Assembly (NCBI GenBank): GCA_019232665.1
Contig: JAFANN010000182.1
Span: forward strand, 1-37,715
Reading direction: 5' to 3'
From: Caulobacteraceae bacterium
GTDB lineage: Bacteria > Pseudomonadota > Alphaproteobacteria > Caulobacterales > Caulobacteraceae
Length of the DNA: 37,715 nt
Shown here: positions 1,857-6,884 of the stretch, piece after piece
How positions within the stretch are numbered: the first letter of the stretch is position 1
Layout: each line of letters begins with the position of its first letter
Notes under the pieces: model-generated
What the model was told of the DNA's origin: nothing
Databases searched by the model: none
The model's input: the letters and a program-made list of their open reading frames with translations, nothing else
Program-made: the position numbers and the translations under genes

Positions 1857-3500
1857 TCAGAGATCTCCGCGCGAGGCGAGCGCCTTGATCCGATCGACTG
1901 TTCGCAGGGAGAGAGCCACGATCGTGAGCGAAGGGTTCACCCCTCCGCATGTGGGGAAGATCGAGCCATCGCAGATCCAGAGGTTGGGGATGTCCCAGCT
2001 TCGGCAGTCGGCGTCGACGACGCTGGTCTCTGGATCAAAGCCCATCCTCGCCGTGCCGTAGAGATGGCAGGTGTCGTTCTCCTGGCGAAAAACATCCCTC
2101 GCGCCGGCGGCCTCGAGACCCATCTGCATCTGGTCCAGGGCATGGGCGATCATCGCCTTGTCGTTGTCGCCCCAGCTGTAGGTGATGCGCGGAACCGGCA
2201 GGCCGTACTGGTCGAGTTCGTCGGTCAGGGTCACTTGATTGCGAGGGTCCGGCAGCATCTCGCCGACCATCTTCAGCCCAACCTGATGGTTGTAGTCCTT
2301 CATCTCCTCACGCAGGGCGCGGCCCCACAGGCCCTTTGACCCGGTCAGGACGTTGACCCACTCGATCGGCAGCGGTCCCTGGGCCATCCAGCAGTAGCCG
2401 CCGAAGAAGTCCTTCTCGTCGCAGTAGTTCCAGTGCTCGGTGACGGTCAGCGAGGGCGGCGCCTTATAGGACCTGACCTCCTGATCCATCTTGCCGAAGA
2501 CCGCCTGGTTCGACTGAGTCATCAGGTACTTGCCAACCAGGCCGGAACTGTTCGCAAGGCCCTCGGGGAATTGTGCATTGGCCGAATTCAGCAGCAGACG
2601 CGGGGTCTCGATGGCGTAGCCCGCGACGATGACGTTGCGCGCGCGCTGAAAGCGCCAGCGACCCTGCCTCAGGTAGTGGACGCCGGTCGCGCGACCGGCC
2701 TCGTCCACCTCGATGCGCCCCACCATCGCGAGGTCGCGGATCTCGGCCCCTGCGCGGATGGCGCGGGGAATGGAAGTGACGAGCTGGCTCTGCTTGGCGT
2801 TGGTCGAGCAGCCGACGCGGCAGAAGCCCCGATAGACGCAAGGATGGGCGTCTCCGCGAGGGGCGGAGAGGGTGGCGATCGGCGTCGGCGTCCAGGCCAG
2901 GCCCATCGCTTCGCAGCCGCGCGCGAGGACCTCCGCCGCCCCGTTCAGCTGATGCTCCCGGTAAGGATACGCCGGTCGCGGCGGGCCCCAGGGATAGGTG
3001 ACCGGGCCAGAGATCGCCAGCAGCCGTTCGGCGCGGCCGTAGTATTCCCAGATCTCCTGCCAATCGATCGGCCAGTCTGCCCCGTAACCCAGGAGAGTCC
3101 GCGCCTTGAACCACTCGGGCCGGAACCGTAGCGACACCATGGCGAAATGGACCGTGCTGCCGCCGACGGCCTTCCCGCTGTTGTTGTCGCCCATCACGAT
3201 GGGATTTGCCCCGTCGACGATGCGCTCGTCGGTCCAGAACACCTGGCGCTGGGCGGTTTCGTCCGAAGCGAAGTCCTCCAGCGGCCGGAAGAAGGGTCCC
3301 GCGTCGAGGCCGACGACCGAGAAGCCGGCTTCGGCCAGCCCCGCGATCAGCGGCGCACCTCCCGCCCCTGTGCCGACGACGACGAAGTCGACCGCATCGG
3401 CCTCCTCGAACTGGCGCATCGGCAGCCACTCGCCGCGCCTCAGGGGATTTGGGGCCCGGCCCTGATCGGCGCGCGGCGCGGCGAAGGGGTCAGCGGACAC
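1857..3500 (-). CDS. GMC-family FAD-dependent oxidoreductase
   Basis: This 547-residue flavoprotein oxidises alcohol or sugar CH-OH groups. Residues about 38-62 form the FAD Rossmann motif (V-V-V-G-T-G-A-G-G), with a later G-G-S-T-V segment. The C-terminal GMC active-site block has His479 in C-H-L-Y-G-T-A-R-M-G and Asn522 in G-G-V-N-P-S, the His/Asn pair of the family. Cys221, Cys227 and Cys231 form a C-x5-C-x3-C cluster near the place where FAD-glucose dehydrogenase catalytic subunits bind a 3Fe-4S cluster. I chose the GTG at 3500, which overlaps the preceding gene's stop by 11 nt; longer starts run through Arg/Pro-rich sequence encoded opposite that gene. It is the last gene of the four-gene operon. 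The substrate is unknown; gluconate/sugar dehydrogenase-like use is inferred from its partner. Confidence 0.9.
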   Translation of the reverse strand: MSADPFAAPRADQGRAPNPLRRGEWLPMRQFEEADAVDFVVVGTGAGGAPLIAGLAEAGFSVVGLDAGPFFRPLEDFASDETAQRQVFWTDERIVDGANPIVMGDNNSGKAVGGSTVHFAMVSLRFRPEWFKARTLLGYGADWPIDWQEIWEYYGRAERLLAISGPVTYPWGPPRPAYPYREHQLNGAAEVLARGCEAMGLAWTPTPIATLSAPRGDAHPCVYRGFCRVGCSTNAKQSQLVTSIPRAIRAGAEIRDLAMVGRIEVDEAGRATGVHYLRQGRWRFQRARNVIVAGYAIETPRLLLNSANAQFPEGLANSSGLVGKYLMTQSNQAVFGKMDQEVRSYKAPPSLTVTEHWNYCDEKDFFGGYCWMAQGPLPIEWVNVLTGSKGLWGRALREEMKDYNHQVGLKMVGEMLPDPRNQVTLTDELDQYGLPVPRITYSWGDNDKAMIAHALDQMQMGLEAAGARDVFRQENDTCHLYGTARMGFDPETSVVDADCRSWDIPNLWICDGSIFPTCGGVNPSLTIVALSLRTVDRIKALASRGDL

Positions 3501-4131
3501 GTTGGTTCTTGCGGCGTGCGGCCGCCTTATCGCCGGGCTTCGCCTCAGCCGGCTCCCACGGATCCCGGCGATCGATGCGCAGGCGCACATAGCCGCGCGG
3601 GCTCGCCGGGCCACCGTAGCCGATCTCGCTCCAGCCCTTGGGGTGGGCGTAGAAGGCATGGGTGATGTCGGGGATCACTCGATGTTCGAAGAACGTCGCC
3701 GGCGGCATCCCACCCCACCCGGAATCCTCGAGCTTCCCGGCCTGCATGCGCCGGATCAGATCCTCGCGCTTCTCCGCTGCCAGATCATGGAAGCCTGTCC
3801 CGTGCGCCGCCCCCGCCTCAGCCTCCAGGGCGGAAAGTCCGCGTCGCCAGGCCTCGCCCTGGCGGGGCAGGGCCCCGTGGCGGTAGCCGTCGGTGTGGTT
3901 CTCGGCCATCTTCTGGTCGACGTAGGCGGCCAGCGGAACGGGGTCGACGTCGCCATCCTGGGGAAAGATCGCGTCGCAGAGGGCCTGGAGCGTGCGCCAC
4001 TCCTGCGGAGTGAAGAACCGCGGCTCGCGGGGGACATTCAGGCGCGCATCGATCGCGGAGCGCGTGGGCTCGTTCCAGGACGGGCCATCCCGTTTGGAAA
4101 GGACATCGTAGCCGGGATAGCGCTCGCTCAT
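3490..4131 (-). CDS. Gluconate 2-dehydrogenase subunit 3 family protein
   Basis: The 213-residue product matches the small subunit family of membrane-bound gluconate/sugar dehydrogenases (PF13618). The block F-F-T-P-Q-E-W-R-T-L-Q-A-L-C-D-A-I-F-P-Q is the usual family opening, followed by a conserved helical region and a W-G-G-M-P-P-x-x-F-F segment. In known complexes this subunit assists folding and export of the GMC flavoprotein. Unlike many relatives, it shows no Tat or Sec signal at the N-terminus. The ATG at 4131 overlaps the preceding stop as ATGA, and the stop overlaps the GMC start. This coupling suggests a physical partnership with the GMC protein. The C-terminal tail is Lys/Arg-rich. 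Confidence 0.85.
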   Translation of the reverse strand: MSERYPGYDVLSKRDGPSWNEPTRSAIDARLNVPREPRFFTPQEWRTLQALCDAIFPQDGDVDPVPLAAYVDQKMAENHTDGYRHGALPRQGEAWRRGLSALEAEAGAAHGTGFHDLAAEKREDLIRRMQAGKLEDSGWGGMPPATFFEHRVIPDITHAFYAHPKGWSEIGYGGPASPRGYVRLRIDRRDPWEPAEAKPGDKAAARRKNQRVR

Positions 4132-5099
4132 TCGCCGCGGCTCTCCAGCAGCGTAAGGGCCGCGAGGCCTGCGATGGCGAGGCCGGTGAAGGATGGCGGA
4201 GCGGGGATGGGCGGACCGCTCATCACGTTTTGACGCCAGTTGCGCCAGCCGCCCATCTGGCGGTGGACGCCGAACACGTGCAGCCCGACGCCGAGGAAGC
4301 CAAGCGCCGCGGTGAGGCGTAGCCACCATCTCGTGAAGGGCCGGGCTCGATCGCTGGAGTCGAGGCTTGCACGTCCGAGCAACGCCGCGGCGACGGGTGG
4401 GATCGTGACGGGCGCCAGCATCAAGGGGTTCTGGAACGCGCCGCGAAAGTGAAGCAGGGCGGCTTCACCGACCGTGCCGGCGATTCCGGCGCTGGTCGCT
4501 GCGGCAAGCGTCCGCCCGGCGGGCAGTCCCAGGATCTTTGGGTCCTCATGCGCGTCGGTGTCGCGCACGCGCTCGGCCAGGAACCCGAGGCTTCCCGAAA
4601 GAAGCATCGCCATCGGCGCGCCGACGGGGGCCGCGTAGAACAGGTTCTGCCAGCAGAGGCCGCCCGGCCTCTTGGTGATGTTGTAGAGGTGGAACGCAGT
4701 CCCGGCGCAGCCCGCGAGCGCCGCGGCGGCGTAGACCGTGTCGCGGAAGCGATGGGCGGCCGGCCGGCGATCCGCAACCCCGTGCAGGCTCGCCGCCAGC
4801 GAGGCCGCCGCGGTGATGAGCGGGGTGATCATCGCCGGATTGTGGAAGGCGCCGACGTAGTGCTCGATCCCGCTGTCGAACAGCACGGAGGCCGCGAGCG
4901 TGCCGGAGGCGCCGTTCAGTCTACGTCCTACCTGCGCGGCGAGCTCATCCGACCGTTCGTTCCGCGGCGCCCGAGTCCATTGATGCGCGCCTCTCTTTGT
5001 GACCGGCGCCCTTCGCAACGCAGATCGACGCCAGGTCGACGGGGATTTCGTGTCGCCGGCGTGCTCGCGCCGGCGAGAGATCACCGCTGTCGGGTTCAT
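4128..5099 (-). CDS. Eight-helix membrane protein with two-fold internal repeat, operon partner of GMC dehydrogenase
   Basis: I do not recognise a named family for this 323-residue protein. After a basic, probably cytoplasmic 60-residue leader, eight hydrophobic segments are visible (about 62-80, 86-108, 119-140, 153-176, 197-217, 225-243, 257-280, 303-318). The two halves resemble each other: G-A-F-H-N-P (83-88) against G-A-F-Q-N-P (220-225), and G-G-L-C-W-Q-N against G-G-W-R-N-W-R-Q-N. His80 and His137 in half 1 match His217 and His274 in half 2. The start is the ATG at 5099 with AAGG/GGCGGA upstream, 6 nt after the TPP-enzyme stop. It overlaps the subunit-3 gene by ATGA. I infer a membrane anchor and possibly an electron carrier to the quinone pool for the GMC complex. 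Confidence 0.8.
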   Translation of the reverse strand: MNPTAVISRRREHAGDTKSPSTWRRSALRRAPVTKRGAHQWTRAPRNERSDELAAQVGRRLNGASGTLAASVLFDSGIEHYVGAFHNPAMITPLITAAASLAASLHGVADRRPAAHRFRDTVYAAAALAGCAGTAFHLYNITKRPGGLCWQNLFYAAPVGAPMAMLLSGSLGFLAERVRDTDAHEDPKILGLPAGRTLAAATSAGIAGTVGEAALLHFRGAFQNPLMLAPVTIPPVAAALLGRASLDSSDRARPFTRWWLRLTAALGFLGVGLHVFGVHRQMGGWRNWRQNVMSGPPIPAPPSFTGLAIAGLAALTLLESRGE

Positions 5100-5105
5100 T
5101 CCGCC

Positions 5106-6884
5106 TTATTCCTTGTGCGGAACGACAGATTCGAAAACCTGCTTGGCGGTGTTCTTGAGCACGCTGCCGAGCTCGGGCTCATCCTTCAGCGACAGCATGA
5201 AATGGCGGGCGTCCTTTAGCGTGATGTGTGGCGGCAACGGCGGGACGTTGGGGTCGGTGTAAGCCTCCAGGATCACCGGCCTGTCCGAGTTGAGCGCTTC
5301 CTCCCACGCGTCGCCGACATCGTCGGGATGGTCGACGAATATCCCTCTCAGGCCGAGGAGCTCGGCATACTTGTGGTACGGCATGTCAGGGATCGACTGG
5401 GTGCTCTCGGTCTTGCCCGCGCCGATCTGCACCCGCTCCTCCCAGGTGACCTGGTTGAGGTCACGGTTGTTGAGCACCAGGCAGATGAAGTGGGGCGTCG
5501 ACCACTGCTTCCAGTATTTGGAGACGGTGATCATCACGTTGATCCCGTTCATCTGCATCGCCCCGTCGCCCATGCAGGCGATCACCGTCCGATCCGGGAA
5601 GGCCATTTTGGCGGCCAGGGCGTAGGGCGTGCCGGCCCCGAGCGAGGCTAGGCCTCCCGAGAGGGAGAACATCATTCCGCGCCGCGCCTTCAGATCTCGG
5701 GCGAACCAGTTGGCCACGCTGCCGGAATCGGCCGTCACGATCGCTTTGTCCGGGAGGCGGGGCGACAGCTCCCAGAACACCCGCTGAGGATTGAGGGGAT
5801 CGGCGGACGCCATGGCCTTCGCTTCGAGTTGCCCCCACCAGTTCTCGAGGCCCTTGGCGATACCGTCGCGCCATGACGTATCGGTGTTCTGCCGAAGCAG
5901 GGGCAGCAGCGCCCGCAGGGTCGCGGCGGAGTGGCCTACGAGGTTCACCTCCATCGGATAGCGCATGGAGAGGTTCGCCCCGTTGATGTCGATCTGCACG
6001 CCGCGCGCGTCGCCCGGCTTGGGCAGGAACTCCGAATAAGGGAAGCAGGAGCCGACCATCAGGAGGGTGTCGCACTCCTTCATCAGATCCCAGCTCGGCT
6101 TGGTGCCGAGCAGGCCGATCGAGCCGGTGACCCAGGGCAGATCGTCGGGCAGGGCGGCCTTGCCCAGGAGCGCCTTGGCGCAGCCCGCGCCCAGCTTGTC
6201 GGCGACGGCGATCAGTTCGTCGGTCGCATGGAGCGCGCCGGCGCCCGCGAGGATGGCGACCTTCTTTCCGGCGTTCAGGACCTCGGCCGCTGCGCGCAGA
6301 CCGGCGTCGTCGGGGACCTTGGATTCGACGGCGTGCCCGACGCCGGTGTGGACGGCGCCGTGCTCCATCGGCGGGTCCTCGTATTTCATCAGTTGCAGGT
6401 CGTTGGGCAGGATCACGCAGGTGACCGACCGCTTGGCGCGGGCGATCCGCACGGCCCGATCGATGAGGGTGCGGACCTGGCCGGGCTCGGTTCCCATGGC
6501 GACGTATTCGCTCGCCACGTCCTTGAAGAGGTTCAGGAGGTCGACTTCCTGCTGGTAGCTGGCGCCGATCGACATCCGCCCCTGCTGACCGACGATCGCA
6601 ACGACGGGAACGTGGTCCATCTTCGCGTCGTACAGGCCGTTGAGCAGGTGGATCGCGCCGGGTCCCGAGGTGGCGAAGCAGAGACCGACCTCGCCGGTGA
6701 ACTTGGCGTGGGCTGACGCCATGAAGGCGGCCATCTCCTCATGGCGGACCTGCACGTACTGCATCCGGTCCTTGGCCTTCTCCAGCGCGACATCCAGGCC
6801 GCCGACGCCATCGCCGGGATAGCCGTAAACGCGCTTGATCCCCCACTCCCCAAGCCGCTGCCAGACGAATTCGCTCACATCCAT
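5106..6884 (-). CDS. Thiamine diphosphate-dependent enzyme, pyruvate oxidase/acetolactate synthase-like
   Basis: This 592-residue protein has the three-domain layout of the superfamily. The N-terminal PYR domain holds the cofactor-activating Glu in R-H-E-E (about residue 49). The central domain contains I-L-A-G-A-G-A. The C-terminal PP domain has the ThDP/Mg motif starting G-D-G-A-M-Q at residue 439 and ending N-N at 472-473. Resemblance is closest to PoxB-type pyruvate:quinone oxidoreductases and the 'TPP-requiring' proteins near them. A C-terminal amphipathic stretch (V-L-K-N-T-A-K-Q-V-F) could touch the membrane as in PoxB, but this is inference. The ATG at 6884 has GAGGAG about 10 nt upstream. 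It is the first gene of the four-gene operon and diverges from mipZ. Confidence 0.85.
   Translation of the reverse strand: MDVSEFVWQRLGEWGIKRVYGYPGDGVGGLDVALEKAKDRMQYVQVRHEEMAAFMASAHAKFTGEVGLCFATSGPGAIHLLNGLYDAKMDHVPVVAIVGQQGRMSIGASYQQEVDLLNLFKDVASEYVAMGTEPGQVRTLIDRAVRIARAKRSVTCVILPNDLQLMKYEDPPMEHGAVHTGVGHAVESKVPDDAGLRAAAEVLNAGKKVAILAGAGALHATDELIAVADKLGAGCAKALLGKAALPDDLPWVTGSIGLLGTKPSWDLMKECDTLLMVGSCFPYSEFLPKPGDARGVQIDINGANLSMRYPMEVNLVGHSAATLRALLPLLRQNTDTSWRDGIAKGLENWWGQLEAKAMASADPLNPQRVFWELSPRLPDKAIVTADSGSVANWFARDLKARRGMMFSLSGGLASLGAGTPYALAAKMAFPDRTVIACMGDGAMQMNGINVMITVSKYWKQWSTPHFICLVLNNRDLNQVTWEERVQIGAGKTESTQSIPDMPYHKYAELLGLRGIFVDHPDDVGDAWEEALNSDRPVILEAYTDPNVPPLPPHITLKDARHFMLSLKDEPELGSVLKNTAKQVFESVVPHKE

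Follow-up and report, generated by a model that had tools for sequence, protein, structure and literature searches.

The window analysed here is a stretch of 37,715 nucleotides from a Caulobacteraceae bacterium (contig JAFANN010000182.1). A tight cluster of four genes is found on its minus strand, encoding a TPP-dependent enzyme, a membrane protein (MP), a Gluconate_2-dh3 small subunit and a GMC oxidoreductase. The small-subunit ATG overlaps the stop codon of MP (ATGA; gaATGAgc). The nearest solved relative of the TPP-dependent enzyme is E. coli PoxB. The features of the cluster are as follows.

5106..6884, minus strand: TPP-dependent enzyme, first gene of the conserved operon (NCBIfam PRK08273)
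4128..5099, minus strand: MP open reading frame, ATG start, 323 amino acids, eight predicted transmembrane (TM) helices in two homologous halves
4542..4958, minus strand: first four-helix unit of MP, residues 48-186 (AlphaFold2 helices and hhalign against the second half)
4860..4862, minus strand: codon for His80, at the end of TM1 in the first unit
4830..4832, minus strand: codon for Met90, at the start of TM2 in the first unit
4689..4691, minus strand: codon for His137, within the GxxGxxFH motif of TM3 in the first unit
4131..4532, minus strand: second four-helix unit of MP, residues 190-323 (hhalign and AlphaFold2)
4449..4451, minus strand: codon for His217, the counterpart of His80 in the second unit
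4419..4421, minus strand: codon for Met227, the counterpart of Met90 in the second unit
4278..4280, minus strand: codon for His274, the counterpart of His137 in the second unit
3490..4131, minus strand: Gluconate_2-dh3 small subunit, 213 amino acids (PF13618, E 1.6e-22)
1857..3500, minus strand: GMC oxidoreductase (P0003), about 547 amino acids from the GTG at 3500 (PF05199/PF00732)

A protein with a PEPxxWA-CTERM-type sorting signal is encoded at 321-1061 on the minus strand and is a neighbour unrelated to the operon.

MP belongs to a family without a name or a fitting model in Pfam, NCBIfam or the PDB. When single MP proteins and MP alignments were searched against Pfam, NCBIfam, PHROGs and PDB sequences, only chance matches were returned. 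The searches of Pfam, NCBIfam and the PDB did not connect MP with any known cytochrome b family, although distant homology could escape such searches, and no relative of MP was found among the viral contigs.

The distribution of MP was determined in a scan that covered one genome per species for 84,980 species. A total of 281 relatives were found, and the best 80 of the 281 are mostly from Alpha- and Betaproteobacteria. Relatives from Deinococcus, Acidobacteriota and Actinomycetota are contributed by plasmid records. Within the source order, Caulobacterales, MP is rare and patchy.

The operon order TPP enzyme, (enolase-like protein), MP, Gluconate_2-dh3, GMC flavoprotein is conserved. With the window excluded, the Gluconate_2-dh3 gene directly follows the MP gene in 85 of 97 loci, and a TPP gene is placed between the two in 5 further loci of the 97. 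The GMC gene is located downstream on the same strand within 3.5 kb in 88/97 loci. An enolase-superfamily gene stands just before MP (69/97 loci), and a TPP enzyme is encoded upstream (73/97). The loci that depart from this pattern are mostly contig ends or broken copies. One departure (L009) is an artefact of frame choice by the counting script, and in a metagenome-assembled genome (L033) the operon is cut after MP by unrelated genes. On the Methylocystis sp. MJC1 plasmid (L017:4809-5294), a truncated MP of 161 amino acids is found after the TPP gene and near transposase genes; this operon is broken, and the dehydrogenase subunits do not follow. On an Embleya plasmid (L129:3354-4162), a remnant of the TPP gene is joined to an MP fragment, apparently decayed.

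The same operon has evidently been described once before, in Asaia bogorensis. In its treatment of membrane-associated primary dehydrogenases, the Asaia paper presents Asbog_02184-02187 as a 'pyruvate oxidase operon' composed of a TPP enzyme, a TM protein, Gluconate_2-dh3 and GMC (PMC4596401). The operon is given there as unique to that species, the TM protein is given seven TM helices, and the membrane side is left open. The Asaia lannensis locus (L098) shows the order of the Asaia bogorensis operon. Relative to that treatment, the duplication, the invariant residues, the one-copy relatives, the iron-sulfur triad and the wide distribution (281 relatives) are new. Literature searches for the operon under other names returned the Asaia paper only.

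The two halves of MP were compared by profile-profile alignment with hhalign. Residues 60-184 were aligned to residues 192-323 with a probability of 99.5, an E-value of 3.2e-22 and a score of 126.6 over 115 columns. When the columns of one half were shuffled 60 times as the control, the top score was 21.1. Independently, when the one-copy protein of Frondihabitans (156 amino acids) was used as the query, each half of MP was matched alone, with E-values of 1.6e-12 and 1.5e-6. The two halves are homologous, because the hhalign score is far above the shuffles and one-copy relatives match each half. This bears out the earlier note, in which residues of about 62-176 and 197-318 were read as copies. 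The motif pairs on which the note relied also fall into register: GAFHNP at 83-88 is aligned with GAFQNP at 220-225, and GG..WQN at 145-152 with GGWRNWRQN at 283-291.

One-unit relatives of 154-157 amino acids are present in Frondihabitans (actinobacterial) and in Deinococcus, in the same slot before Gluconate_2-dh3 and GMC. These one-copy relatives presumably work as dimers. In a tree of the halves, the proteobacterial first halves form one group (support 97/98) and the second halves another (99/98). The halves of the two-copy protein of Granulicella share 43% and 41% identity with the Deinococcus unit. Both of these halves cluster with the one-copy proteins (96/88 support), apart from the proteobacterial halves, which would mean a second, separate fusion. 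The branching is thus suggestive of two independent duplications or fusions, one proteobacterial and one in Granulicella. The AU tests leave a single duplication compatible with the data (p 0.09 and 0.42).

One-copy forms also occur alongside fused two-copy forms in families of the SemiSWEET/SWEET type. MP differs from these by its four-helix unit and its dehydrogenase operon, and homology is not claimed. The likeness bears on a non-redox reading, an unlikely one in our judgement, in which MP is a membrane anchor, an assembly factor or a permease for substrate or product, and the histidines are structural or proton-conducting. Small transporters such as SemiSWEET/SWEET (PMC5742349) often come in half-length and duplicated full-length versions, and the sugar-enzyme neighbours of the operon (GH15, enolase-like, SDR) would fit a permease or a related role. 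The genetic context points the other way: the MP gene is nearly always adjacent to those of the dehydrogenase subunits and, in the window, overlaps the next reading frame; it is also restricted to one GMC clade.

Conserved residues were then counted in the homologue alignment. The earlier note had placed His80 and His137 of the first half opposite His217 and His274 of the second, and all four are indeed aligned and invariant (91/91 homologues). The remaining seven histidines of MP all vary within this set. Met90 is invariant (91/91), and the matched Met227 is kept in 90/91. Among the charged residues, Glu212 is invariant, and Asp75 and Glu79 are retained in 89/91. Asp75, Glu79, Glu212, Arg219 and a consensus Arg at position 82 are all near or next to the histidines and invariant or nearly so. 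In 54 joint half-sequences, the invariant columns in second-half numbering are His28, Gly31, Met38, Pro41, Gly78, Gly81, His85, Pro108, Ala111 and Pro112. Potential ligands that are invariant in both halves are therefore limited to two His and one Met. The one-copy proteins, including those from other phyla, retain all three. No CxxCH is present in MP, and its only cysteines, Cys131 and Cys149, are not conserved in the homologue alignment.

AlphaFold2 was used to predict the structure of the whole MP, with an alignment from which the rows of plasmid records were left out. The model has a mean pLDDT of 85.9 and a pTM of 0.81. It contains eight long helices (48-81, 88-109, 113-143, 160-179, 194-221, 225-246, 253-281 and 301-322) and two short ones. 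The second unit modelled alone is a four-helix bundle (pLDDT 90.6, pTM 0.84). Each four-helix unit has one His/His(/Met) site, and the eight-helix MP is thus a fused pair of units. In the model, the four invariant histidines sit 1-7 residues before the C-terminal ends of helices 1, 3, 5 and 7, and all are therefore predicted to point towards one membrane face. The helix assignment of the earlier note, with the same helix ends and a single face, is matched by this model. Relative to the conservation moment of the helix, His137 and His274 deviate by 28 and 4 degrees and face the conserved side. His80 and His217, located at helix ends, deviate by 66 and 117 degrees, which counts against the electron-transfer reading given below.

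Structural searches were performed with Foldseek and VIA-align. In Foldseek, nothing was found under E 0.001 for the whole MP (PDB and viral models) or for the single unit (PDB). In VIA-align, MP and 3d19, which with 3dby represents the DUF2935-like duplicated four-helix metalloproteins, were superposed with a Z of 12.7, an rmsd of 4.2 and 239 aligned residues at 6% identity, which is within the range of unrelated helix bundles. The GGCX chains, from the VKOR/GGCX group of quinone-binding membrane domains, gave a Z of about 6-7.5 with about 200 aligned residues. The VIA-align matches to 3d19, the IgE receptor beta/CD20 proteins, the copper storage proteins and GGCX look like common helix-bundle similarity. 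Cytochrome b is missing from the Foldseek and VIA-align lists, which is no evidence against it.

These results bear on another reading, which we consider improbable, that the His/His/Met set of each unit is a binding site for copper or iron instead of heme, with a role in electron transfer or in the handling of metals. The set comprises the sole ligand-type residues invariant in both halves, the unit is an up-down four-helix bundle with the copper storage proteins among its structural neighbours, and the neighbours of the whole MP include the duplicated metalloprotein 3d19. Any helix bundle would be expected to give matches of this strength, and the operon contains no metal-homeostasis gene.

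The catalytic partner was identified by comparison with solved structures. The closest solved relative of P0003 is 6a2u_B, the alpha subunit of the B. cepacia FAD-glucose dehydrogenase (E 4.6e-51), and the fructose dehydrogenase catalytic subunit is also close. The motif Cys198-x5-Cys204-x3-Cys208 of P0003 is aligned with Cys212, Cys218 and Cys222 of the Burkholderia cepacia enzyme, which are the ligands of its [3Fe-4S] cluster (PMC6719666). The Cys triad is invariant in 85/85 GMC subunits, and a [3Fe-4S] cluster at Cys198/204/208 is thus predicted for the GMC subunit. In the B. cepacia enzyme, the [3Fe-4S] cluster is located 7-8 A from heme c of the third subunit (PMC9727119).

The presence of MP follows this dehydrogenase closely. 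When 398 genomes from across the phylum were sampled, MP was found in 5, and these are exactly the 5 with a GMC protein at 61-100% identity. In the next GMC cousins, at 41-44% identity (L125-L128), MP is missing and the small subunit is joined to the end of an alpha/beta hydrolase. These cousins still have all three cysteines, and therefore the triad does not require MP. The idea that the Fe-S triad and MP are lost together was accordingly rejected.

The three-subunit FAD dehydrogenases (B. cepacia 6a2u and 8hdd; the Gluconobacter fructose enzyme; the gluconate/sorbitol enzymes) share with the window operon a GMC subunit with the [3Fe-4S] Cys triad, the cluster being read from sequence, and a small subunit of Gluconate_2-dh3 type encoded by an adjacent gene. 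Two differences were found. The small subunit of the known enzymes carries a Tat signal and is periplasmic, whereas the small subunit of the window type has none. The known enzymes have a heme-c (CxxCH) subunit, and the window operon instead has the duplicated eight-helix MP with its invariant histidines. The complex would work like the three-subunit FAD dehydrogenases and, with these two defining features (Tat signal and heme c) missing, is best filed as a variant of that kind.

The small subunits of 92 loci start with MxxRYPGYDVL or a similar sequence and show no Tat or hydrophobic signal, and the GMC and TPP proteins show no export signal in the homologues examined. The complex should therefore be cytoplasmic. 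The charge distribution of MP gives a different prediction. The non-His face carries about 15 Lys and Arg residues plus a basic N-terminal tail, and the His face carries about 8; by these counts the His face is predicted to be periplasmic. In that orientation a cytoplasmic cluster could not reach the site. The net charge of both faces is about equal, so the positive-inside rule is weak here and not decisive. An extra hydrophobic segment before TM1 is present in 58/79 homologues and absent from the window MP. Loop conservation is much higher on the His face (0.78-0.83) than on the other face (0.43-0.55). The unexported partners and the strongly conserved His face argue for docking of the enzyme there from the inside. 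A periplasmic His face would suit the non-redox reading introduced above, but conservation that peaks at one membrane face, not through the membrane, speaks against it.

The invariance of the histidines and the operon favour a redox role for MP. We consider it marginally probable that MP is the dedicated membrane electron-transfer or quinone subunit of a three-part FAD/iron-sulfur dehydrogenase together with GMC and Gluconate_2-dh3. The conserved loops of the His face, the single ORF for both dehydrogenase subunits next to the one-copy MP in Deinococcus sp. D7000, and the independent placing of the Asaia operon with the primary dehydrogenases (PMC4596401) are further points in favour. We infer the formation of this complex, its electron path, its cofactor and its substrate as follows. 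An alcohol or sugar-type substrate would reduce the FAD of the GMC subunit. The electrons would then pass from the FAD to the [3Fe-4S] cluster held by Cys198/204/208 and on to MP, from which quinone would be reduced. MP would stand in place of the heme-c subunit of the FAD-dependent glucose, fructose and gluconate dehydrogenases. The earlier note had proposed that paired membrane histidines are heme b or metal ligands, which would give an electron path to quinone. The invariant His pairs and the neighbourhood of a [3Fe-4S]-type GMC protein are in favour of this proposal; the predicted periplasmic position of the His face, with partners that are not exported, counts against it, and the proposal is thus upheld in part.

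The chance that MP has a membrane electron-transfer role at all is about even, and within that role heme b is somewhat better than even. A bis-His heme b in each unit, held between helices 1 and 3 of the up-down-up-down bundle, is by analogy slightly favoured over a heme-less quinone site. The heme ligands of cytochrome b also come from alternate helices, and conserved His pairs on TM helices, a feature of membrane cytochromes b, are found in MP. In the anchors of cytochrome b and succinate dehydrogenase, a helical membrane subunit is placed beside an Fe-S donor, and paired histidines are carried on alternate helices of a four-helix bundle. MP resembles these anchors in its helices beside a predicted Fe-S donor and in its paired histidines on alternate helices, a comparison of working principle only. 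The anchors have two stacked His pairs, whereas MP has one pair per half, on one face. No sequence match or clear fold match between MP and the anchors was found.

A quinone or metal site would conserve the histidines equally, so that conservation does not single out heme. One alternative to the heme-b reading, possible but on balance doubtful, is that MP is only a quinone-binding anchor, in which the histidines form pockets with the acids (D75/E79 and E212) and the arginines (82 and R219), and no heme or metal is bound. The [3Fe-4S] cluster would then reduce quinone directly, as in complex II, where such a cluster is able to reduce quinone without heme. The invariant or nearly invariant charged residues beside the histidines fit this alternative, as does the [3Fe-4S] donor predicted in the partner. 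It requires the His site to be on the membrane side of the cytosolic enzyme, contrary to the positive-inside rule, and it leaves the invariant Met and the GxxGxxxH motifs unexplained.

The heme-b reading can be combined with the evolutionary data. In the combined scenario, four-helix bis-His (with Met) units would first have acted as one-copy dimers, would have been fused at least once and perhaps twice, and would now transfer electrons from cytoplasmic FAD/[3Fe-4S] GMC dehydrogenases to quinone through heme b. This scenario as a whole is put forward tentatively. To our knowledge, an electron exit through a heme-b quinone reductase is not known for the GMC dehydrogenase class. The described membrane-bound GMC/Gluconate_2-dh3 enzymes, which find use in biosensors and power oxidative fermentation, pass electrons via a periplasmic heme-c subunit. 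If the proposal is true, a widespread polytopic duplicated membrane protein would give this class a second connection to the respiratory chain, perhaps one on the cytoplasmic face of the membrane. An unannotated family would also gain a function that can be tested by mutating a few specified residues. With both one-copy and two-copy members, the family is well suited to work on the origin of symmetric membrane proteins by fusion.

Several observations were made on the surroundings of the operon. In Deinococcus sp. D7000 (L014:5380-7977), Gluconate_2-dh3 and GMC are encoded in a single ORF directly after the one-copy MP. On Deinococcus plasmids, a small ORF (L014:4535-4933 and L019:4556-4945) directly precedes the one-copy MP and has a weak VKOR match (PF07884, E 4e-5, below the cut-off) with a C-x2-C near the C-terminus. 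This VKOR-like ORF is possibly a quinone-linked partner in Deinococcus. The operon is often flanked by SDR, GH15/trehalase-like glycoside hydrolase and sensory rhodopsin transducer-like genes (for example L020:8081-10732 and L018), and these neighbours suggest a sugar pathway. The exact EcfG-type motif, GGAAC-N15-18-CGTT, is absent upstream of the operon in the window. It is found at -56 to -100 from the TPP gene in 9 of 80 loci (L012, L018, L026, L058, L063, L075, L083, L090 and L094), compared with 0.6% of background 400-bp windows. In part of the MP family, the operon may thus belong to the alphaproteobacterial general stress regulon.
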